Shown: positions 10,437 through 21,650 of the stretch, one piece after another
Layout of the letters: every line of letters starts with the position of its first letter
How positions within the stretch are numbered: position 1 is the stretch's first letter
DNA from: an uncultured Ruminococcus sp.
Lineage (GTDB): Bacteria; Bacillota; Clostridia; Oscillospirales; Ruminococcaceae
Length of the DNA: 37,722 bases
Direction of reading: 5' to 3'
NCBI GenBank assembly: GCA_947177755.1
Contig: CAMWVV010000004.1
Span: forward strand, 1 to 37,722
Program-made: the position numbers and the translations under genes
Notes under the pieces: generated by a model
Told to the model about the DNA's origin: nothing
Database searches by the model: none
The model's input: only the letters and a program-made list of their open reading frames with translations

Positions 10437-10439
10437 AGG

Positions 10440-10476
10440 AAAGAAACTGTATTAATTTACAGTTTCTTTTTTTATC
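10440..10476 (+). terminator. Terminator of the tRNA operon
   Basis: AAAGAAACTGTA (10440-10451) pairs perfectly with TACAGTTTCTTT (10458-10469) around a 6-nt loop, followed by a T-run. Confidence 0.9.
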
Positions 10477-10506
10477 TGAAAAATCAACGGCATTATAATA
10501 ACATCA

Positions 10507-10541
10507 AAAAAGACAGTATAATTCAAATATACTGTCTTTTC
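10507..10541. terminator. Second, bidirectional hairpin terminator
   Basis: AAAAGACAGTATA (10508-10520) pairs perfectly with TATACTGTCTTTT (10528-10540). The minus-strand reading has a T-run after the stem, so it probably ends the minus-strand DUF4234 transcript and backs up the tRNA terminator. Confidence 0.8.
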
Positions 10542-10591
10542 TTAATATTGCTGTTTATTGTGGCATTTAAAATAATTACAATTATTCAGAT

Positions 10592-10999
10592 TTAACCATG
10601 AATATTATAATTTTCAGAAAGTTTATTCATTGCAACGCACATCTTATGTAAATAAACAAAAGGTCCGACTATAACAATAGCACCAAGGACGTACCAAAGC
10701 CAGAACGTACCTGCATTGAAACTATAATCTATACCTCTTCTTTTGAGTTCATTGCCGATACGGTCGGAAATATTATGGCACCATACCAGAAGACCTATAC
10801 CCAATGTAAGCGGAGCAACAACAAAACACATAAGGCAGTAATGCATAGTTTTTCTGCCGTCATATCTTGAAGCTATTGCGTTGACATCTTTAGAAAGTCC
10901 CGAATAAAAAATAATGCCGTAAATACCAAAAGTTATTAATGAAAGAAGAATTACTTTAAGTAAATCTCTGCTTGTAGAGAGCTGTCCCACAGGTGCAGA
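10592..10999 (-). CDS. DUF4234 membrane protein, C-terminal body cut off from its own 5' end
   Basis: Codons from SAPVGQLSTSRDLL to the stop (135 residues) match the DUF4234 domain: SLITFGIYGIIFYSGLS, the ASRYDGRKTMHYCL block, GNELKRRGIDYSF and a final hydrophobic segment. There are three or four membrane helices. The usual Gln/Asn/Tyr-rich N terminus is missing. The frame stays open to 11179, but those extra codons are the antisense reading of that very N terminus, which lies on the plus strand at 11069-11164. As it stands the gene has no proper promoter, ribosome site or start. Flipping 11000-11164 would restore all of them and give 167 codons. The family's function is unknown. Confidence 0.8.
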   Translation of the reverse strand, partial: SAPVGQLSTSRDLLKVILLSLITFGIYGIIFYSGLSKDVNAIASRYDGRKTMHYCLMCFVVAPLTLGIGLLVWCHNISDRIGNELKRRGIDYSFNAGTFWLWYVLGAIVIVGPFVYLHKMCVAMNKLSENYNIHG

Positions 11000-11164
11000 A
11001 TATAATATGGTATAATGATAAAAATTGCATTTTTTGTGGTTTATATGAATAGTAAAGGAGTAAAAAAGATGGATTATCAAAATAATAACCCATACGGTCA
11101 GAATAATAATTCGTATGGTCAGAACCCAAACCAATATGTGCAGAATAACACACAGTATGTATAT
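11000..11164. other. Inverted (possibly invertible) promoter-and-start segment of the DUF4234 gene
   Basis: The segment is bounded by ATATA (11000-11004) and its complement TATAT (11160-11164). It carries, in plus orientation, TATAAT (11011-11016) with TGG before it, AAAGGAG (11054-11060) and an ATG (11069) opening a Gln/Asn-rich peptide. Computed inversion joins codon TAT (11162-11164) to TCT (complement of 10999-10997) in frame. It also places TTGACT (minus strand, 11176-11171) exactly 17 bp from TATAAT. In the present orientation both the promoter and the gene are split. No recombinase gene is adjacent. Confidence 0.72.
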
Positions 11165-11188
11165 ATAATAAGTCAACACAAAATATAA
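11069..11188 (+). pseudogene. Displaced N-terminal fragment of the DUF4234 gene
   Basis: ATG 11069 with AAAGGAG eight bases upstream opens a 39-codon frame beginning MDYQNNNPYGQNNNSYG, a low-complexity Gln/Asn/Tyr/Gly tail typical of the start of DUF4234 proteins. The first 32 codons are genuine. The last seven, after 11164, run into flanking DNA and stop at TAA 11186-11188. In the present orientation it could encode only this short peptide. Confidence 0.7.
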
Positions 11189-11263
11189 TATAATCGGAAT
11201 TTTTATATGTTATCTGATTTCAATAACTGAGATTTGCTGTATTTTAACATAATTTGGTAATTA

Positions 11264-11292
11264 TTGACTTTTAAAACGTTCTATGATATAAT
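11264..11292 (+). promoter_or_regulatory. Consensus promoter of the ADP-ribosylglycohydrolase gene
   Basis: TTGACT (11264-11269), 17 bp, then TATAAT (11287-11292) preceded by TGA (extended -10). The predicted transcript begins near 11299, just before GGAGG. Confidence 0.85.
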
Positions 11293-11321
11293 AACTAAAA
11301 TATTTATATTGTAAGGAGGCA

Positions 11322-12386
11322 TTGACTATTAATACTTTAAGCAAATATAAAGCCTGCCTGATTGGCGGTGCAATAGGTGACGCTCTCGGTTATACTGTTG
11401 AGTTTATGCATGAAAGGAACATTTTCAATGAGTACGGCGAAAACGGCATAACAGAATATGAAATCATAAACGGAAAAGCCATTATTTCCGACGATACACA
11501 GATGACCCTTTTCACCGCAAACGGTCTTCTGCTTGGTGCAAAAGACGGCTCATATATTCACTCGATATATGATTGTTATAAAGAATGGTTTATAACACAG
11601 AACTGCGGATATGAAACAAAATCAAAATGCCGTGATTTGCTTGTTTCATGGCTTTTAGACGTTCCAGAGCTGTGGTCAAGACGAGCGCCAGGATTTACTT
11701 GTATTAATGCTATCTCCTTAGGTAAAATGGGTTCTGTAAGAAATCCCATAAACGACAGTAAAGGTTGTGGCGGTGTAATACGTGTTGCACCCGTCGGACT
11801 GTTTTTCAAGAACACAAGCATTATTTCACAGACCGATATGTTAGCCGCTGAAGCTTCCGCAATTACTCACGGTCATGAACTGGGTTATATTCCGTCCGCT
11901 GCTTTTGCACACATTATAAACCTTATTTCACACAGTAATATTTCACTCAGAGATGCAGTAAACGACAGCATTTCCCATACAGAAAAACTTTTCAAAAATG
12001 CTGAACATATCAGATATTTCAGTAAACTCATGAAAAAGGCTGTAAAGCTTTCCGAAAAGAAATACAGTGACCTTGATGCTATTCACGAACTCGGCGAAGG
12101 CTGGGTAGCGGAAGAAACTCTTGCAATTGCCGTCTACTGTGCATTAAAATATGAAAACGATTTTGAAAAAGCAATTGTAACATCTGTAAATCACAACGGC
12201 GACAGCGATTCCACGGGAGCAGTTGCAGGAAACATTATCGGTGCATATCTCGGTATGGACTCTATACCACAGAAATTTCTTGACAATCTCGAAATCAGTG
12301 GCGTTATTTCTGAAATAGCAGAAGATTTATATAAATATGACCTTGATGAATATCAGGAAGAAATGAAAAGCAAGTATAAAATCTGA
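11322..12386 (+). CDS. ADP-ribosylglycohydrolase family protein
   Basis: A protein of about 354 residues of the DraG/ARH family, which removes ADP-ribose from proteins or small molecules using a binuclear Mg2+ site. Metal-ligand motifs are present: GAIGDALGY near the N terminus, SDDTQMTLFTANGLL (about residues 54-68) and GDSDSTGAVAGNIIGA near the C terminus. Start choice is a problem. GGAGG at 11315-11319 is only two bases from TTG 11322. ATT 11325 has ideal spacing and sits where relatives begin Met-Asn-Thr. I give TTG 11322 but ATT is possible. No ADP-ribosyltransferase is seen nearby. It is monocistronic, with its own promoter and terminator. Confidence 0.9.
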   Translation: MTINTLSKYKACLIGGAIGDALGYTVEFMHERNIFNEYGENGITEYEIINGKAIISDDTQMTLFTANGLLLGAKDGSYIHSIYDCYKEWFITQNCGYETKSKCRDLLVSWLLDVPELWSRRAPGFTCINAISLGKMGSVRNPINDSKGCGGVIRVAPVGLFFKNTSIISQTDMLAAEASAITHGHELGYIPSAAFAHIINLISHSNISLRDAVNDSISHTEKLFKNAEHIRYFSKLMKKAVKLSEKKYSDLDAIHELGEGWVAEETLAIAVYCALKYENDFEKAIVTSVNHNGDSDSTGAVAGNIIGAYLGMDSIPQKFLDNLEISGVISEIAEDLYKYDLDEYQEEMKSKYKI

Positions 12387-12491: not shown

Positions 12492-14540
12492 ATGGAAAAA
12501 AATGAATACCTTGTTGCTCTTGCAGGAAATCCAAATGTCGGAAAATCAACGGTTTTCAATGCTCTTACAGGTATGAACCAGCATACAGGAAACTGGGCAG
12601 GTAAAACCGTATCAAGTGCGGAGGGATATTTTGAATACAAAGATATGAAAATTACTCTTGCCGATATTCCAGGTACATATTCTCTCCGTACAAACTCCGC
12701 CGAAGAAACAACTGCAAGCGATTTTATATGCTTTTCGGGTGCAGACGCTGCTATTATAGTATGTGATGCAACGTGTCTTGAACGCAATCTTAATCTTACT
12801 TTGCAGATTATTGAAGCCATGCCAAAAAGCATAGTGTGCATAAATCTTCTTGACGAGGCTGAAAAAAAGGGAATTGAAATAAATCTTGACCTTTTAAGCG
12901 AACTGCTCGGCGTTCGGGTCATCGGTGTCACCGCACGGAGCGGAAAGGGTCTTGACGAACTTCTTGAATGTCTTTATAACTGCATAAAAGACGGTTCAGA
13001 CATAAAACCGCCTTTAGTTCAGCTCCCCGACAGCATAGAAAAGGCAGTTTCCGAAACTCAGAAAATCATTGAAAACAATATACATAAACTTCCGCCACGT
13101 CTTACCGCACTTCGTATTATTGAGGGTGATACAGATTTTATAGAAAAAGCCCGTCATTTTGAAAATACTGATATTTTTAACGTTCCTGAAATTCACGACA
13201 TAAAGTCCGATTTACACAAACAAGGTTTCACCAAAGAAAAAATTACCGACGAAATTATTTCAGCAGTTATAAACAAATCTGCCGAAATAACCGATAAAAC
13301 AGTAAGTTACAGCAAATCTTCCCCTTACATACGTGACAGGAAACTTGACAGAATTTTTCTCAGTAAACGTTTCGGAATACCTGTGATGATTCTTTTATTC
13401 GGTCTTATTCTCTGGATTACAATTATCGGTGCAAATTATCCGTCTGACCTGCTCGGAAAAATTCTTTTCAGATTCGGCGACATTCTTTCAGACGGTCTGC
13501 AAAAAATTCACGCTCCGCAGTGGCTTGACGGCGTACTTATACAAGGCATTTACCGTGTACTTGCATGGGTTGTGTCAGTAATGCTTCCGCCTATGGCGAT
13601 ATTCTTTCCTATGTTCACACTTCTTGAAGATTTCGGGTATCTCCCACGGATAGCCTTCAATCTCGACCACGGTTTCCGTTGTGCAAACGCCTGCGGAAAA
13701 CAAGCTATAACTATGGCTATGGGATTCGGGTGCAATGCCTGCGGAGTAACGGGCTGTCGGATTATAGATTCCCCACGTGAAAGACTTATTGCAATACTTA
13801 CAAATAATTTCGTTCCCTGCAACGGACGTTTTCCGACTATCATCATGATAATCACAATGTTTTTTGTAACGTCAGGCAGTATTATGTCTGCTGTTGTCCT
13901 GCTTGGTGTAATAATTATCGGCGTTGTAATGACACTTATCATGTCGAAAATTCTGTCATGCACAGTACTGAAAGGCGTTGCCTCGTCCTTTACTCTTGAA
14001 CTCCCCCCCTACCGAAAACCACAGTTTACAAAAGTTATTGTACGCTCAATATTTGACAGAACTATTTTCGTACTTGCAAGAGCCTGCACCGCCGCCGCTC
14101 CGTGTGGTCTGCTTATATGGATAGTTGCAAATGTACACATCGGACAAAACACACTACTTTCATTAACAGCCGATTTTCTTGACCCTTTCGCCTCTCTTAT
14201 GGGTCTTGACGGCGTTATACTTCTCGCTTTTATACTCGGATTTCCTGCAAACGAAATTGTTTTCCCCATAATACTTATGACATATCTTGCACAGGGAAAT
14301 CTTATTGAAATGTCCGACACGGTTCAGCTGCATTCCCTGCTTACAGAAAACGGCTGGAACATAACCACAGCTTTATGTATGATGATTTTTACACTGTTTC
14401 ATTTTCCGTGTGCCACAACCTGCATGACAATAAAAAAAGAAACAGGAAGTATAAAATGGACTGCACTTAGTTTTATACTGCCGACAGTTACGGGAATTAT
14501 TCTTTGCATGATTATAAACGCAGTAAGCATGATATTCTGA
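12492..14540 (+). CDS. feoB: Ferrous iron transporter FeoB
   Basis: A 682-residue Fe2+ transporter with an N-terminal G-protein domain: P-loop GNPNVGKST at residues 13-21, the HTGNWAGKTV switch region, DIPGTYSL and NLLDEAEK. A linker helical domain follows, then a membrane core from about residue 290 with the two gate segments (PCNGRFPT and FGCNACGVTGCRI). The AGGAGGT ribosome site directly precedes ATG 12492. FeoA, usually encoded just upstream, is absent from the window, and the upstream gap is too small to hold it. Length is within the range of the shorter Firmicutes FeoB proteins. The C terminus ends with a final helix and no cysteine-rich FeoC-like tail. Confidence 0.96.
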   Translation: MEKNEYLVALAGNPNVGKSTVFNALTGMNQHTGNWAGKTVSSAEGYFEYKDMKITLADIPGTYSLRTNSAEETTASDFICFSGADAAIIVCDATCLERNLNLTLQIIEAMPKSIVCINLLDEAEKKGIEINLDLLSELLGVRVIGVTARSGKGLDELLECLYNCIKDGSDIKPPLVQLPDSIEKAVSETQKIIENNIHKLPPRLTALRIIEGDTDFIEKARHFENTDIFNVPEIHDIKSDLHKQGFTKEKITDEIISAVINKSAEITDKTVSYSKSSPYIRDRKLDRIFLSKRFGIPVMILLFGLILWITIIGANYPSDLLGKILFRFGDILSDGLQKIHAPQWLDGVLIQGIYRVLAWVVSVMLPPMAIFFPMFTLLEDFGYLPRIAFNLDHGFRCANACGKQAITMAMGFGCNACGVTGCRIIDSPRERLIAILTNNFVPCNGRFPTIIMIITMFFVTSGSIMSAVVLLGVIIIGVVMTLIMSKILSCTVLKGVASSFTLELPPYRKPQFTKVIVRSIFDRTIFVLARACTAAAPCGLLIWIVANVHIGQNTLLSLTADFLDPFASLMGLDGVILLAFILGFPANEIVFPIILMTYLAQGNLIEMSDTVQLHSLLTENGWNITTALCMMIFTLFHFPCATTCMTIKKETGSIKWTALSFILPTVTGIILCMIINAVSMIF

Positions 14541-14547
14541 AAATAAA

Positions 14548-14580
14548 AAGACCGCACCGAAAAAATTTCAGTGCGGTTTG
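14548..14580. terminator. Bidirectional terminator between feoB and the Ter-type operon
   Basis: ACCGCAC (14551-14557) pairs with GTGCGGT (14571-14577), and GAAA/TTTC pairs inside the loop. An A-rich run precedes the stem and a T-rich run follows. It overlaps the 3' end of the converging transglutaminase gene. Confidence 0.75.
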
Positions 14581-15632
14581 TTGTGCTTTGTAATATCAAT
14601 TTTTTTGCGTGGTTCTTTTCCGAACACAATATTTACGGTATTATGCTTGTCATTGAATATTACCGAAAAACGTCTTGTATTTTTATTCATATGTGAAGTG
14701 TGCAGAAGTGCGGACAATGTTTTTTCCCTGAGTTCTTCGGGACTTGTAAATTCTCCCTTGTCCGTCACCGCACGGAATATTATTTTATTTTCACTGAAAC
14801 GCTTTTCTATAAATTCAAAAAGTTCACGATATGTTGAAACAAAACTGTTTGTACTGTAAAAATAGTTAAGACTCGAATCAATGCATTCGGGGAGTGACAC
14901 TCCGCTTAAAACCTGATGGTCAAGCATTATTTCTTTTGTTGTAAGATTAAAGTAGTCATAACTTATATACTGTATATCTTCATGATACATATTGTCCCAC
15001 GTCACATCAACATGATATGATTCGTTTCCTATTTTAACAAGATTCCATGCATGATAGTCGTCTTTTGTAAAATCACCCTCATGATTTGCCTTGCCGAGTA
15101 CTACTATACATTTCATTCCGAACTGATTACAGAGAAGCTTGAAAGCCTTTGCAATTCCCTCACATACTGCCTTATTATCAAGAAAAACTCCCACTATTGA
15201 ATGTGCATTGAAACAATCGTTTCTTTTAAGTGAATCATAGTCATATGCCACACTTTTTGCTATACTGTCATGCAGATATTTTTCAAGCCTGAATCCGTCG
15301 GTCAGAAAAGTCTGTGCCTTTGCGGTAACTTTATTTATAATCTTCTGTATATCGCCGTTTATAGCGTTTACTTCACCGACGTTGTAAATATATTCAGGCA
15401 TAAGAACGTAATAACCTGTATACCCTGCCATTTTTATAACAGTCTGGTTTATATAATAAAAATGCGGATTATCATAAAGAACTTTCAGATAAGTTTCCTG
15501 AACTGTTTCAGGTGTTACATCAAGTGATATGACTATATTCAGACAATAGGCAGAAAGTCCGTTATAAATAATCTTATATATTTCTCTTTCCGCCCTGTTC
15601 ATAATTATATAATAATATCTGTCATTTTTCAT
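14568..15632 (-). CDS. Transglutaminase-like cysteine protease-fold protein
   Basis: A 354-residue protein with a transglutaminase-like core. The putative triad is the Cys in NKAVCEGIAKAFKLL, the His in DDYHAWNLVKI and the Asp in YHVDVTWDN, in the order and spacing of the family. Such domains act as proteases or cross-linking enzymes. There is no signal peptide, so it is probably cytoplasmic. It is the last gene of the long minus-strand Ter-type operon, 38 bp after the zinc-ribbon gene. The N-terminal 90 residues and the C-terminal 110 residues match nothing I recognise. A substrate among the TerD, kinase or LRR proteins is conceivable but not shown. Confidence 0.85.
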   Translation of the reverse strand: MKNDRYYYIIMNRAEREIYKIIYNGLSAYCLNIVISLDVTPETVQETYLKVLYDNPHFYYINQTVIKMAGYTGYYVLMPEYIYNVGEVNAINGDIQKIINKVTAKAQTFLTDGFRLEKYLHDSIAKSVAYDYDSLKRNDCFNAHSIVGVFLDNKAVCEGIAKAFKLLCNQFGMKCIVVLGKANHEGDFTKDDYHAWNLVKIGNESYHVDVTWDNMYHEDIQYISYDYFNLTTKEIMLDHQVLSGVSLPECIDSSLNYFYSTNSFVSTYRELFEFIEKRFSENKIIFRAVTDKGEFTSPEELREKTLSALLHTSHMNKNTRRFSVIFNDKHNTVNIVFGKEPRKKIDITKHNKPH

Positions 15633-15670
15633 TATACTGCTCTCAGCACTCAGATATTCTGCAATGCTTA

Positions 15671-16036
15671 TTAATATCCTCCTGCTTTAAGTTCAAATTC
15701 GTCGGCGGCTACCACTTCTCCCGACTCTCCGCACCATCTGCAACTAAATGATGTATTCTTCGATGACCAGCAGGTGAGTTTTCCGCATGACGAACATTTT
15801 ACCCAGCCCGTTGAACGGCAATGAGGACAACCAGGATATTCGCAGTCAAATTCCATACGTCCTGAAATGACAGTATCTGTATAGCCCTCGTTTGACGCAC
15901 TTTTTTCACTGAGAGGAAATGCCCATGTACAATACCATATGTCATCGCTTCTTCTTTCCATGCGTATTCCGAATGAATCGGACGACACACCGCATCGTGC
16001 CATTACTACGTTTGCTTCTTTTACATTATTTTTCAT
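15671..16036 (-). CDS. Free-standing TerY-C-like zinc-ribbon protein
   Basis: A 121-residue protein. The N-terminal half contains SSDSFGIRMERRSDDIWYCT and WAFPLS. The C-terminal half has the paired metal-binding motifs CPHC, CSSC, C and CRWC in a pattern that fits two zinc knuckles. This resembles the TerY-C domain normally fused to the C terminus of the vWA protein TerY. Here the vWA protein of the operon (19551-20309) lacks that domain, so the two halves appear to be encoded separately. Assignment rests on motif memory; a generic zinc ribbon is the alternative. The gene is 13 bp after the LRR gene. Confidence 0.65.
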   Translation of the reverse strand: MKNNVKEANVVMARCGVSSDSFGIRMERRSDDIWYCTWAFPLSEKSASNEGYTDTVISGRMEFDCEYPGCPHCRSTGWVKCSSCGKLTCWSSKNTSFSCRWCGESGEVVAADEFELKAGGY

Positions 16037-16049
16037 GATATACTCCTAA

Positions 16050-17531
16050 TTATAGTTTGTATTTTATGTTTCTTGATTTACAGTACATTTCCGCATAACT
16101 GTTGTTCCTTATAGTAATTTCCAGATTCGGACAGTCATTGAATGCACCTTCACCAATATACTTCACACTTTCGCCTATAGTCACATTTTTCAGATTCACG
16201 CACCCTGCAAAAGCAAGTGAACCTATTTCGGTTACCTTTCTTGATATAATAATATTTTCAAGAGATTCACAGCGGTAAAATGCATAATTTCCTATACTGA
16301 CAAGATTCATAGGAAACATGAACCTTTCAAGCCCTGTACAGTATTCAAAAGCTTTATCGCCTATTTTACGGAGATTTCCTGTAAAAGTAACCGTTTTAAG
16401 ATTAACCGCACAGCTGAAAGCTCTGTATCCTGCTTCTTCCACACGGTCTTCAAAATAATACCCTGCATCTGCAACCGACGGCGGATATTTCAGTAAAATA
16501 TTTCCACGTCTGTTATGCAGAACACCTTCATATGAGCTGAAATTTCTGTTTCCCGAATCGGTTTCAATATATTTAAGACAGGGGGTCATATAAAAAGCGT
16601 CGGGTTCTATTATTTTCAGACTTCTCGGCAGTTTTATTGTTTCGGCATTATTGTAGTCAAAAGCCTTTCTGCAAATTCGTTCAGTATTTTCGGGAATTAT
16701 ATATTTCTGTCTGTTACGGCTGTTTTCGGCACGGACTGCCGATTTTGTTCTTTTATCAAGCAGTATACCGTCTTTTACAATATATCCGCAGTTTTCATGA
16801 ACATTTATGATTTCAAGAGAACTGCACCCCTCAAACGCACACGTTCCTATGCTTTTCAACTCGGACGGAAGATATATTTTTTTTAAATTAATACAGTTTA
16901 TAAAAGCTTTCGGATATATCGCCGTAACTGTTTCAGGCAGTATAATTTCAGTAAGATTTTTATCTGCCGAATATGCTCTGAATCCGACTGCATTACAGCT
17001 TCTGTCAATTTCATTCCCCGAAATCTTCATTTTCTTTGTAAATACTTTTTTCTGAGGTTCAGCCTGCGTTTCTGAAACTGTATTCATAAACGAATCGGGC
17101 AATCCTCCCGAAACGACAAGACCAAGTGCATATGCAACCGACATTAAAGCATATTCAGAAGCACTTTCGGTAATGCATATATCTTCTGCAATACGGTGAG
17201 AAATTTTTTTTATTTCGAATAATGTTTCACCGTCACTTTTTCCGTAAAGCCTGATAAGTTCATTTACAGCATTTTCACGCATGATATTTAAAATAAGCTT
17301 GCGTTCTTTTCGTTTATCGGGTACATAGTCCATAAGTATGGCATTTATTCTTGCTGTATTAAGAAAAAGTTCTTTGCCGTAATCGTCTGCCAGCTGTTTC
17401 AGAAGTTCTGCCATACTTTCTTTATCATTACCATTTGAAACAAATTTTTCACTGCAAAACGGACATTTATATTTATTCTCCGAATCAGTAAAAAGTACAC
17501 CCGTTATTTTTCTGCATTTCGGACAACGCAT
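16050..17531 (-). CDS. Zinc-ribbon plus BspA-type leucine-rich-repeat protein
   Basis: A 493-residue protein. Residues 1-30 form a zinc ribbon (CPKC, then CPFC). Residues about 35-145 are a helical region including KELFLNTARINAILMDY that I cannot name. From about residue 175 onward there are BspA-type (LRR_5) repeats: AFINCINLKKIYLPSELKSI, AFEGCSSLEII, AFEYCTGLERFMFP, AFYRCESLENI, AFAGCVNLKNV and AFNDCPNLEI. There is no signal peptide, unlike surface BspA proteins, so it is likely a cytoplasmic scaffold. AGGAGGTG precedes ATG 17531. It follows the phosphatase gene by 69 bp with a hairpin in the gap. Confidence 0.88.
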   Translation of the reverse strand: MRCPKCRKITGVLFTDSENKYKCPFCSEKFVSNGNDKESMAELLKQLADDYGKELFLNTARINAILMDYVPDKRKERKLILNIMRENAVNELIRLYGKSDGETLFEIKKISHRIAEDICITESASEYALMSVAYALGLVVSGGLPDSFMNTVSETQAEPQKKVFTKKMKISGNEIDRSCNAVGFRAYSADKNLTEIILPETVTAIYPKAFINCINLKKIYLPSELKSIGTCAFEGCSSLEIINVHENCGYIVKDGILLDKRTKSAVRAENSRNRQKYIIPENTERICRKAFDYNNAETIKLPRSLKIIEPDAFYMTPCLKYIETDSGNRNFSSYEGVLHNRRGNILLKYPPSVADAGYYFEDRVEEAGYRAFSCAVNLKTVTFTGNLRKIGDKAFEYCTGLERFMFPMNLVSIGNYAFYRCESLENIIISRKVTEIGSLAFAGCVNLKNVTIGESVKYIGEGAFNDCPNLEITIRNNSYAEMYCKSRNIKYKL

Positions 17532-17549
17532 TTATTCACCTCCTGAAAA

Positions 17550-17587
17550 ATGCGGATACATCGTTGAAAAAACAAATATATCCGCAT
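17550..17587 (-). terminator. Intra-operon hairpin between phosphatase and LRR genes
   Basis: ATGCGGATA and TATCCGCAT (17550-17558, 17579-17587) form a 9-bp stem with a 20-nt loop. On the minus strand TTTTT follows the stem, so it may act as a partial terminator or attenuator lowering expression of the last three genes. Confidence 0.5.
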
Positions 17588-17600
17588 AATTATTTTATCT

Positions 17601-19532
17601 TTAATTCAAAGACTCTAAGTCTAATATTCCACCTTCTATTACTTCCGGCTCATAATCATGATTTTCGTCAGATTCATCATCTTCTGAGTTTTCATGCACA
17701 TCGTCCGAAATATTTTCGGCGGTTTCCTGACCTGAATTTTCGGTGTCTGCGTTTTTTTCTTCGTTTATGTCATCTTTATCCGAATTATCTTCTTCTGAAT
17801 CTTCATGTACATTGTCCACAATATTTTCGGCGGTTTCCTGACCTGAATTTTCAGTGTCTGCATTTTTTTCTTCGTTTATGTCAATATCTTTATCAGATTC
17901 ATCTTCATATGAAGTTTCAATTTCCTTTTCCAAAGATACCCTATGTTTTTCCTGATAACTTTCGTCGGGGTTATTTTCCTCCGAATTTTCATGCTTTTTT
18001 TCTGAAATCTTCTGGATTTTTTCATTACGCATTTTTTCATCTTCAGGAAGCGGAAAATCTATATCCATATTTCTTCTTCTCACAAGGTCATCATCGGGAA
18101 TACCGTCATTATCAGGATTCTCATTATTCGGCTCTTCGGAACATTCGGAATTTCTTCTGTTCCAGAGCTTTTCCCTCTTTTCGACATACTTTCTGTATTC
18201 CGTTACGGGTCTTCCGCATTTCGTACAGAAACCACTTCTGCCAGATACAATTATTCCGCAGTAATAACATACATTTATTGAATCAGACGCTCCACGCAGA
18301 TTTCTTTTGAGAGTCTCATAATCGTTTTCAATAAAATTATATGCTCTCTCAGACCTTTGCAGTTCTGTTTCAGCTTTTTTTAACGATTTATCAAGTCTTT
18401 TACAGTTTTCTTCCTCTTCCTGCAATCTGAAATAAACTTTTTTTAAACTTTTTTCAAGCCGTTCAATTTCACCTTGCATTTCTTCTATTTTCTGCCTGTC
18501 AAGCCTTGCAACTCTTTCCGCCACTATCTTCTTTTCAGCCTCGTTGGCTTCCTGTTCTCTTCGTTTAGCGTCGGCAACTCTTTGTTTCTGCTTGTCCATG
18601 TCATATTCTTTTACTATGGAAAGCTCAGGAATAACATCAGTATCAAGTATCGCTGCCACTGAAATATCATCACCGCTTCCCTGCTGTGAAAGTTTAGGGA
18701 GATAATTTTTCAAATCATCCTGAGCCTTGGAAAAATCAGACGTGCTGAAAGAATAAAGAACGGTTTTGTAAAGGTTATACATCTGTTCGTCTTCTTTAAA
18801 ACAGTTGTCAATGCCGTCTGAACTCACAATGACCGCCGCAGGCAGTTCCCTGCCATACGCCACAAAATGATTTCTGTTTTCTATATCTGCAACATCTTTA
18901 AACTTAGCATTATAACTCTCTGGATTATCACAGCTGAAACAGCCACGGAAATTTTCAAATGCATCTTTATCACACATTGAAGTAGTCGCATTTGCAAAAC
19001 ACTTTGGATTTTCGGGAACAGGCTGACAAAATTCACCGTTGCGGTCCACTGTTATAAGTTTACCGTCGCCAAGCTGAATACCAAACCAGTAATCACGGGT
19101 CATGACAACAGCAACAAGAGTAGTTCCGTATGCACTGTATATATTTCCGCTTTTGTATTTTTCATATGCTTTATCTGATATCGAACTGAGTTCCGAATCC
19201 GTAAACGGATTATTCTTGTAATGCGCTTCAACCGTTTCACGCCATTTTTTTATAATCCTCTGTTCAAGAGTATAAAGCAGTGATTCATTTTCACTGAAAA
19301 ACTTTTCACTGCTTATTTTGCCCATCATTGAATTTATCATAAATTCAGCAGATTTACAGCCAAATTCAGAACCTTTGTTACTTCTTACATAATCAGCTCC
19401 GCCGTGACCGTCGCATACAATCGCATATGACCATTCTTTTTCGGAATTTGAAATTGAATAGTCCTGACACACTGTCCCTTTTTTTATATGACTTGCTCCA
19501 AGTACCGATATATCAAAGGTTTTCATATTCAT
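17601..19532 (-). CDS. PP2C-family phosphatase with coiled coil, zinc ribbon and acidic tail
   Basis: A 643-residue protein. Residues 1-300 are a PP2C Ser/Thr phosphatase with the metal-binding motifs CQDYS (Asp24), CDGHGGAD (Asp41), YGTTLVAV, SSDGIDN and GDDISVAA. A long charged coiled coil (about 305-420) follows, then a zinc ribbon (CYYCG...CTKCG). The last ~200 residues are an acidic, low-complexity tail with a tandem 37-residue repeat. GGAGGT lies eight bases before ATG 19532. It is the phosphatase member of the kinase/vWA/PP2C triad, encoded right after the vWA gene, and probably reverses the kinase's action. The tail is likely disordered and may bind Ca2+ or partner proteins. Confidence 0.92.
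   Translation of the reverse strand: MNMKTFDISVLGASHIKKGTVCQDYSISNSEKEWSYAIVCDGHGGADYVRSNKGSEFGCKSAEFMINSMMGKISSEKFFSENESLLYTLEQRIIKKWRETVEAHYKNNPFTDSELSSISDKAYEKYKSGNIYSAYGTTLVAVVMTRDYWFGIQLGDGKLITVDRNGEFCQPVPENPKCFANATTSMCDKDAFENFRGCFSCDNPESYNAKFKDVADIENRNHFVAYGRELPAAVIVSSDGIDNCFKEDEQMYNLYKTVLYSFSTSDFSKAQDDLKNYLPKLSQQGSGDDISVAAILDTDVIPELSIVKEYDMDKQKQRVADAKRREQEANEAEKKIVAERVARLDRQKIEEMQGEIERLEKSLKKVYFRLQEEEENCKRLDKSLKKAETELQRSERAYNFIENDYETLKRNLRGASDSINVCYYCGIIVSGRSGFCTKCGRPVTEYRKYVEKREKLWNRRNSECSEEPNNENPDNDGIPDDDLVRRRNMDIDFPLPEDEKMRNEKIQKISEKKHENSEENNPDESYQEKHRVSLEKEIETSYEDESDKDIDINEEKNADTENSGQETAENIVDNVHEDSEEDNSDKDDINEEKNADTENSGQETAENISDDVHENSEDDESDENHDYEPEVIEGGILDLESLN
17658..17879 (-). 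repeat. Two tandem 111-bp repeats in the phosphatase tail
   Basis: Two in-frame 111-bp units (17879-17769 and 17768-17658) encode near-identical 37-residue acidic repeats beginning INEEKNADTENSGQETAENI. The first 60 bases of each unit are almost identical, which indicates a recent duplication and a likely length polymorphism. Confidence 0.9.
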
Positions 19533-19550
19533 AACAGATTACCTCCGATA

Positions 19551-20309
19551 TTACCACTGAAGACTGTCATCATCGTCAAACGGACTTTCCTCATTCCATT
19601 CAATATCATCTTTCTGAGCCTGAATTTCCTGAATCATAATGTCCTGCTTTGTTTCAATTTCATTATTTCCCGAATCTGAATTTGAACCTGCATTGGAACT
19701 CTTGCTTCCGATTTCAGACGCACGGACAGTAACAAACTGTATCCATTTTCTAAGCTCTTTCGGACTTGTAACATCTATTACGGCTTCCGAATTACCTGCA
19801 AATTCCGCAAGTACGTTTTTATTTGCATCTTCACCTATAGCTATGGCAACCTTTATTGCTTTTCTGAACCAGTTATTTTGTTTAAGCTTGTCAAGTCCGT
19901 ATCTGTAGTTGTCCGTCGGTTCGCCGTCAGACATAAGGAATATTGCAGGAGCAAACGAACCGGTTGCGTCATTCATAAATGCTGTTCTTGAAAGTTTTTC
20001 ATTGAGCTGCTGGCAGGCTTCACCAAGGTCTGTAACACCCGATGCGTCAAGATAATTCCAGACAAAATTTTCTGCTGATACGGGCTGGCTGTCAAGCCAC
20101 TTCGCACCTGTGGAAAACTGAAGTGCGGCAATCTTAATCTGTGCGTCTGCATTGCTGTCCGAAATATCAGCAATTTCGGGGATAATATCTTCAATGGCAC
20201 TGTTTACCGTACCGATTTTACTTCCGCTCATACTTCCCGATGTATCAACAACAAAGAAAAGTACCATTGTTCTTCTGGGAACTTCAACTGTTTCATCATA
20301 TAATCCCAT
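19551..20309 (-). CDS. von Willebrand factor A domain protein (TerY-like)
   Basis: A 252-residue cytoplasmic vWA protein. The metal-ion-dependent adhesion site is complete: DTSGS (Asp22, Ser24, Ser26), the Thr of GVTDLGEA, and the Asp of MSDGEPTDN. This is the TerY member of the TerY-P triad (vWA, kinase, PP2C). Classical TerY ends in a zinc-binding TerY-C domain; here the C-terminal 50 residues are polar and acidic with no cysteines, and a TerY-C-like protein is encoded separately at 15671-16036. GAGGT precedes the ATG. It lies 21 bp after the kinase gene and 18 bp before the phosphatase gene. Confidence 0.9.
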   Translation of the reverse strand: MGLYDETVEVPRRTMVLFFVVDTSGSMSGSKIGTVNSAIEDIIPEIADISDSNADAQIKIAALQFSTGAKWLDSQPVSAENFVWNYLDASGVTDLGEACQQLNEKLSRTAFMNDATGSFAPAIFLMSDGEPTDNYRYGLDKLKQNNWFRKAIKVAIAIGEDANKNVLAEFAGNSEAVIDVTSPKELRKWIQFVTVRASEIGSKSSNAGSNSDSGNNEIETKQDIMIQEIQAQKDDIEWNEESPFDDDDSLQW

Positions 20310-20330
20310 CTCTTACAACCTCACTTATCA

Positions 20331-21635
20331 TTATAAAATTTCACCGTCATTGCCGTTTCCGAATCTTATTTTAAGACCCTTGACCAGCTTTATTACCTGC
20401 CCGCTTTCATAGCTTTTTGATGCTCCGTTAGGTGCAACCGCCGTCCATGCACGTCCTGAATTGTTTTTCAGACCTGCTACGGCAGGAACACTTCTGCTTA
20501 AAACTACCTCGCCCATTTCCTGATTATAGTCTTCACTGTCATATACCGCATGACAAGCATATATCTTCTTTGAGGGCATTAATCCCACAATATTCTTTTT
20601 AACTTTCAGAATATACGGATTTTCAATGGCTTTTCCGCAGCATATACACTTTGATTCCTGTTGTGAAAGATTAAGGAAAGTTTCTTCCCTGCATGACGGA
20701 CATTCAGCAAGACAGTCACGCAGTTTAATAAATATTTCCTGCCATTTCTTTTCAGTTACACGATGCTCAGTGTTATTGCCTATCATTGATTCCCTGCTGA
20801 ATGCTTCCTGAAATGCTTCCTTTACAAATTCGGGATAAAGAGACCATAATTTTATTTCATTACTGTGTAACTCCGCAACGGGTCTGTTCTGCGGATTATT
20901 CTTGTCAAAGACGAATACAGGTTCACTTCCGTAAAATTTACGTTCAAGTTCTTCGGTAAGACACGGAAATTTCAGCGTTCTTTCACCCTCCAGCGGATGA
21001 TTTACAAAAATAAGCATATACAATACAACAGCAAGTGAAAATCTGTCCGTGTGAATATCCGGCTTTTTCTTTCCTGTTACAACTTCGGGAGCCATATAAC
21101 GACACTTTCCGGCGATTCCGAAAGCTTTTCCGTATTCTGCCACATTATCGTTATCACATATGAGGACATCACCTGTATCGGGATTCACAAAGAAGTTTCC
21201 GTCATTAAGGTCCTGATAGCTGAAGCCTTTGTTATGAAGTACCCTGAATCCTGTAGTAATCTGAAGAGCGGCATTTATTACTGCCTTGATTCCCGAAAAA
21301 TGTACCTTTGCACGCAGGAATTTTGAAAAGTCCTCATACTCTTTCGGACGGAGTTTCATAAGATAGCCGAAACTTCCCTCAAAATATTCCGTAATTTCAA
21401 CAGGCCAGAGAAATGCACTTGTCGGAGTGCCTTTTCTTATATTGTTTTCGATGTTCATATAAAAACGTTTGTGGTCTTTAAGCTTGTTCACAAAGTACCA
21501 TTTAAGAGCATATTCCTTACCGTTGTAAGTTACTCTGTAAACTATTCCCTGTCCGCCTTCTCCGAGCTTTTCAATAACTTCAAGTTCTCCGCCTGATTTG
21601 ACTTTTATCTTCTGTCCCTTTGAAAACTCTTTCAA
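20331..21635 (-). CDS. TerY-P-type protein kinase with C-terminal zinc ribbon
   Basis: A 434-residue protein. Residues 20-290 form a Ser/Thr kinase-like fold: the Gly loop GEGGQGIVY (25-33), Lys45 in ALKW, and the catalytic loop SYQDLNDGNF (Asp142, Asn147). Two canonical triplets are altered: HRD is YQD and DFG is DND (Asp161). The three key acidic and Asn residues are kept, so it may be active. A zinc ribbon (CPSC...CICCG, about 320-345) and a beta-rich C-terminal domain ending IRFGNGNDGEIL, perhaps FHA-like, follow. The start is TTG 21635 behind AAGGAGA, which overlaps the terD stop. It is probably antagonised by the PP2C protein. Confidence 0.9.
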   Translation of the reverse strand: MKEFSKGQKIKVKSGGELEVIEKLGEGGQGIVYRVTYNGKEYALKWYFVNKLKDHKRFYMNIENNIRKGTPTSAFLWPVEITEYFEGSFGYLMKLRPKEYEDFSKFLRAKVHFSGIKAVINAALQITTGFRVLHNKGFSYQDLNDGNFFVNPDTGDVLICDNDNVAEYGKAFGIAGKCRYMAPEVVTGKKKPDIHTDRFSLAVVLYMLIFVNHPLEGERTLKFPCLTEELERKFYGSEPVFVFDKNNPQNRPVAELHSNEIKLWSLYPEFVKEAFQEAFSRESMIGNNTEHRVTEKKWQEIFIKLRDCLAECPSCREETFLNLSQQESKCICCGKAIENPYILKVKKNIVGLMPSKKIYACHAVYDSEDYNQEMGEVVLSRSVPAVAGLKNNSGRAWTAVAPNGASKSYESGQVIKLVKGLKIRFGNGNDGEIL

Positions 21636-21650
21636 ACGCTACATCTCCTT

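Follow-up and report, generated by a model that had tools for sequence, protein, structure and literature searches.

A probable one-off micro-inversion of 165 bp parting a DUF4234 gene from its start and half of its promoter in an uncultured Ruminococcus sp.

The body of a DUF4234 gene in an uncultured Ruminococcus sp. lies next to a 165-bp segment, at 11000-11164, and inverting this segment restores both the open reading frame and the promoter of the gene. The restoration is confirmed here, and a past inversion at these positions, splitting promoter and coding sequence as proposed in a first-pass annotation of the same DNA, is well supported by the sequence itself, by shuffled controls, and by the layout of homologous genes. 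The event was probably a recent, one-off micro-inversion between short arms present by chance. The window analyzed is one whole contig of 37,722 nucleotides, belonging to a draft genome of 2.6 Mb in 239 contigs.

The split gene and its restoration

The features of the locus as sequenced are as follows.

10506-10542, minus strand: terminator-like hairpin, detected on both strands, 3' of the DUF4234 body and of tRNA genes
10592-10999, minus strand: DUF4234 gene body of 135 codons plus stop, without an ordinary start (PF14018)
11000-11164, no strand assigned: inverted segment, 165 bp, whose reversal restores open reading frame and promoter
11000-11004, plus strand: left arm, ATATA (from the sequence; pairing ends after 5 bp)
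11008-11016, plus strand: displaced extended -10 box, TG-G-TATAAT (read from the sequence)
11054-11060, plus strand: Shine-Dalgarno motif AAAGGAG serving the displaced start (read from the sequence)
11069-11164, plus strand: displaced start, with ATG at 11069 and 32 codons in total, 50% Q+N (from tail composition; several homologues have similar tails)
11069-11188, plus strand: 39-codon mini-ORF running from the displaced start in the present orientation (read from the sequence)
11160-11164, plus strand: right arm, TATAT (from the sequence; pairing ends after 5 bp)
11171-11176, minus strand: -35 box TTGACT, beyond the end of the inverted segment; reversal of the segment gives it 17-bp spacing to the -10 box
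11264-11292, plus strand: promoter-like site (TTGACT-17-TATAAT) of the divergent neighbor
11322-12386, plus strand: neighboring gene of the ADP-ribosylglycohydrolase family (PF03747, E 6.3e-64)

The body is a clear member of its family, matching Pfam DUF4234 (PF14018) with an E value of 3.5e-21 and 75.5 bits against a cut-off of 25.3, and proteins of up to 66% identity align with it over almost its full length. At its beginning there is neither an ATG nor a GTG or TTG with a Shine-Dalgarno motif, and the best minus-strand promoter match in the present orientation (11000-11264) reaches 9 of 12 bases.

When 11000-11164 is inverted, the Shine-Dalgarno motif, the ATG, and 32 Q/N-rich codons come into frame with the body as a single ORF of 167 codons, with QYVYSAPVGQL at the join. 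The same operation produces TTGACT-17-TATAAT, a promoter with 11 of the 12 consensus bases and 17-bp spacing that is located 52 nt 5' of the ATG; a TG precedes its -10 box, which reads as an extended -10, TGGTATAAT. Both the in-frame joining into a 167-codon gene and the exact 17-bp distance between the hexamers had been claimed in the first-pass annotation and are reproduced here, and every coordinate that it gave is correct on rereading. A flip of the segment rebuilds or breaks the ORF and promoter of the adjacent gene, as judged by sequence only.

A point absent from that annotation is that the reading frame of the body meets no stop across the flipped segment, so that 205 codons are open in the present orientation. 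This frame has five GTG or TTG codons at or before the body start, none of them with a Shine-Dalgarno motif, and no ATG. Because a comparably open antisense frame is found in 3 of the 17 homologues tested in the same way, it is given no weight.

Chance expectation, homologues, and sister loci

The probability of such a coincidence was approached with and without fixed breakpoints. Between 11000 and 11320, a stretch of 321 bases upstream of the gene body, 121 inversions are bounded by arms of at least 5 bp and have a length of at least 50 bp. Eight of these create a fusion of at least 20 codons with a Shine-Dalgarno motif and ATG, and one alone, 11000-11164, also yields a promoter matching 11/12 or better. 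Among 3,000 dinucleotide-preserving shuffles, at least one fusion arose in 96 and both repairs in 2. When breakpoints were left free within 600 bases upstream, a fusion with Shine-Dalgarno motif and ATG coincided with a promoter of at most one mismatch in 92 of 146,610 inversions; in the first 25 of these 92 listed, every end lies at 11332-11334, and the fusions listed probably use the promoter of the neighboring gene. The earlier assertion that both repairs are very unlikely by chance is upheld by the shuffles and the arm-bounded inversions and is tempered by the count for free breakpoints. Its description of the repairs as independent goes too far, since both hinge on a single quantity, the breakpoint sum: given a suitable promoter spacing, the frame will also be right in one-third of cases. 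The composition of the tail is evidence separate from the two repairs. Of the 41 Shine-Dalgarno-led ATGs in the window that are followed by 32 open codons, the displaced start is the only one with at least 30% Q+N, and its own value is 50%.

Starts were analyzed in 22 homologues, plus L012, L013, and L014, with L123 and L124 left out. All 22 homologues, a count that is partly non-independent because L120 and L122 have nearly identical N-termini, have an in-frame start on the strand of the body, which is a Shine-Dalgarno-led ATG in 20 and an ATG without the motif in 2. The gene is intact in the named records L012 and L014 as well; L013 is identical to L117 in its N-terminus and adds no independent case. 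A promoter-like site with 10 to 12 of 12 matches and 17-bp spacing lies 26 to 59 nt before the ATG in 11 of 17 homologues, where the best match per 150 nt was counted without a shuffled control. The tails that precede the body range from 3 to 146 residues. Those of three of the four same-family members analyzed, MDNQNYNNYSSQGQQ, MEPQNNYPQQYNQ, and MNEQNNYQQPVEQ, are very similar to MDYQNNNPYGQNNNSYGQ of the displaced start, and the fourth, L113, has a tail of three residues; the APVGQL of the join is also present in four homologues from other families. As read from these genes, the homologue layout supports an inversion, with no orthologue at the same locus among them.

The closest relatives of the gene come from outside the genus. 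A protein search of 125 genus genomes gave matches in 12, including the genome itself, with all others at 38% identity or less and no close orthologue among the 125. At the level of the order, matches came from 72 of 394 genomes, its own once more among them, and the best others are 60 to 66% identical. When 119 relatives were searched together with genus and order, close homologues were found outside the genus only (best, 66%). A scan of genome contigs returned six loci (best identity, 64%), the viral contigs scanned contained no relative, and a DNA search of 60 relatives found no orthologous stretch, with short or weak matches in 8. The literature search for DUF4234 returned a single paper, the accessible part of which lists the domain in one table row, among Enterococcus faecalis hypothetical genes showing a low-biofilm phenotype, and gives no function (PMC6753144).

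The interval from the tRNA-Glu gene to the ADP-ribosylglycohydrolase gene could be compared in seven sister loci. It is a gap of 60 to 90 bp in three, holds another small gene in three, and measures about 2.9 kb in one. DUF4234 is missing there in the sister species examined, and no relative shows an uninverted form at this very locus. The comparison of this locus suggested at first pass, made here with sister species, yielded no orthologue, and it is the homologues analyzed elsewhere that are uninverted. The tRNA-Glu/ADP-ribosylglycohydrolase gap (10437-11320 in the window) is a site of gene turnover, being nearly empty in some sister species, occupied by another small gene in others, and occupied by DUF4234 in the window.

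Because blastn (E 1e-3) found no further micro-inversion in the aligned parts of four sister stretches, such events are not frequent here. Two reversed matches in collinear position proved to be terminator-like hairpins, and the other reversed matches were out of place. Elsewhere in the window, a block at 14540-21649 that adjoins TerD genes encodes protein-kinase, LRR_5, TerY_C, PP2C, and VWA domains; none of the four sister stretches compared has a corresponding block at that position.

Segment ends and recombinases

The arms had been described at first pass as short, at 5 bp, and this is borne out: they pair over exactly 5 bp, with no imperfect extension. Centered on the inversion, windows of 12, 16, 20, and 26 nt reach at best 75, 63, 60, and 54% pairing. 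All of these best windows start at 10891-10905, at a distance from the segment ends, and no longer imperfect arms sharing this center were found. Among random 17-nt ranges here, only about 2% contain arms of 5 bp or longer. The 5-bp arms are probably linked to the event and give no strong sign of being a recombinase site, although their frequency of about 2% could also hint at one. The inverted repeats of invertons are given as 10 to 40 nt in the accessible part of PMC11892184, and the 5-bp arms fall short of that length.

Neither junction of the opposite state is present in the assembled genome with up to two mismatches allowed, and the assembly holds one full-length copy. The lack of an adjacent recombinase noted at first pass holds for the 40 of 103 window ORFs scanned against Pfam, none of which has a recombinase domain. 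Elsewhere, the genome has 16 matches to serine recombinases and 13 to tyrosine recombinases, 12 of the latter exceeding the family cut-off, and inverted repeats lie near several of these loci (10-base seed, score of at least 12, four per locus). Of 11 recombinase-side arms compared with the segment ends, that of L043 stood out: it agrees with both ends at 11 of 16 bases, which 1 of 200 shuffled arms also attained. For the remaining 10 arms the corresponding figure was an unremarkable 67 to 196 of 200. As one in 11 arms tried, this sequence resemblance is weak. Its source is a 19-nt imperfect inverted repeat adjoining a tyrosine recombinase at L043 2502-3345.

Two other loci of the same genome were observed in the course of this comparison. 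At L048 1810-1944 (contig C176), a 16-bp inverted repeat with a TTGACA -35 box in each arm surrounds about 100 bp with two promoter-like sites that, by eye, face each other, an inverton-like arrangement about 1.2 kb from a serine recombinase. At L046 2295-2567, inverted runs of TTTCGTATC repeats are found about 550 bp from a serine-recombinase match.

Origin and significance of the inversion

The first-pass annotation raised the candidate of a reversible DNA switch in its off state, and this is unsupported by the 5-bp arms, the 40 of 103 window ORFs without a recombinase, and the absence of the opposite junctions from the assembly. In such a switch, a recombinase encoded elsewhere would flip the segment and turn DUF4234 on and off, perhaps directing the -10 box toward the neighbor when off. 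We regard this as unlikely. It could draw on the intactness of every gene and promoter piece, on the tyrosine and serine recombinases of the genome, one serine recombinase lying about 1.2 kb from facing promoter-like sites in 16-bp inverted repeats, and on the weak match of one arm in 11 to both ends; it is at odds with unextended 5-bp arms, where invertons have 10 to 40 nt (PMC11892184), and with the recombinase and junction results above, and the coordinates would place the crossover within the promoter spacer. A minimal ON/OFF switch, in which 5-bp arms cut both promoter spacer and coding sequence and the off state is left without promoter or start, is quite improbable; were it true, searches for invertons that rely on longer repeats would overlook such a site.

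An assembly or library artefact, with the intact gene on the true chromosome, is also an unlikely source of the arrangement. In its favor, the genome is a draft of 239 contigs with a single orientation. In general, however, a 5-bp repeat would be too short for an assembler to produce a clean inversion with two junctions unless reads spanned them, and amplification chimeras would have one junction, not two sharing a center. It is very unlikely that no inversion took place, that is, that the mini-ORF on the plus strand has no relation to the body or that the present open frame is the real gene with another N-terminus. The 205-codon frame does stay open across the flipped segment, homologue tails vary greatly, and free breakpoints give a fusion with a good promoter in 92 of 146,610 inversions; set against these are the lack of an ATG and of a Shine-Dalgarno motif at any of the five GTG or TTG codons, a promoter of 9/12 at most, the recovery of both repairs in just 2 of 3,000 shuffles, and a plus-strand tail that is like three same-family DUF4234 tails and has no second Q/N-rich start beside it in the window.

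A recent one-off micro-inversion is the reading we prefer. The segment is short, its repeats are very short, and a sensible gene results on reversal. The flip is probably recent because the two halves have no stop or frameshift and the promoter hexamers and Shine-Dalgarno motif are kept. Intact halves could reflect either a recent flip or one that reverts, the recent flip being likelier; as remnants they also fit a reversible switch, and this counts against a one-off event, as does the variation of homologue tails, that of same-family L113 having only three residues. The lack of a relative with the uninverted form at this locus and of further micro-inversions in the aligned sister stretches weighs on the same side. 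Nonprogrammed recombination or replication-template switching at the AT-rich arms may have flipped the segment. The -10 box, the Shine-Dalgarno motif, and the first 32 codons would thereby have shifted to the other strand, with the -35 box and the 135-codon membrane-protein body staying put, and the small DUF4234 protein would have been silenced through loss of both transcription and translation of the body. The stray extended -10 box is now directed at the ADP-ribosylglycohydrolase gene and could add weak transcription there at most.

Known systems resemble parts of this picture. Invertible promoters, or invertons, were reportedly described by Jiang et al. in 2019 and intragenic inversions by Chanin et al. 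in 2024. Like these, the segment here carries promoter parts and coding sequence, and its flip would toggle a gene; unlike them, it has arms far under 10 to 40 nt, no linked recombinase, and no second orientation in the assembly. The nearest precedent found comes from an evolved Escherichia coli clone, where, as far as the accessible part of that report describes it, a nonvariable 24-bp micro-inversion between 8-bp repeats disrupted a gene (PMC4272514). Both cases feature a short segment, short inverted repeats, and a single flip that breaks a gene, and the E. coli clone was homogeneous. There, however, the flip disrupted a protein sequence, whereas the segment here has 165 bp and 5-bp arms and covers half a promoter, a leader, and the first 32 codons. 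In yeast, the available text of PMC8604942 describes spacer inversion via template switching at short inverted repeats, in one case from a 5-bp arm, with final arms of more than 9 bp and spacers of 2 to 5 bp. These events are likewise nonprogrammed inversions between short inverted repeats, and they can revert, but their arms are longer, their spacers far shorter, and the organism is not a bacterium. Arms of 5 bp that are 155 bp apart would hardly form a textbook substrate for template switching.

In conclusion, the event is of an ordinary kind, and its trace is unusually clear. If it were reversible, the spectrum of DNA switches known so far would broaden; taken as a one-off event, it presents a clean case of a gene silenced by micro-inversion, and its wider weight is limited. 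It illustrates that two concordant repairs can reveal a micro-inversion from a single sequence. Where draft genomes have lost gene starts, the cause may likewise be an inversion with repeats below the length that inverton finders detect.
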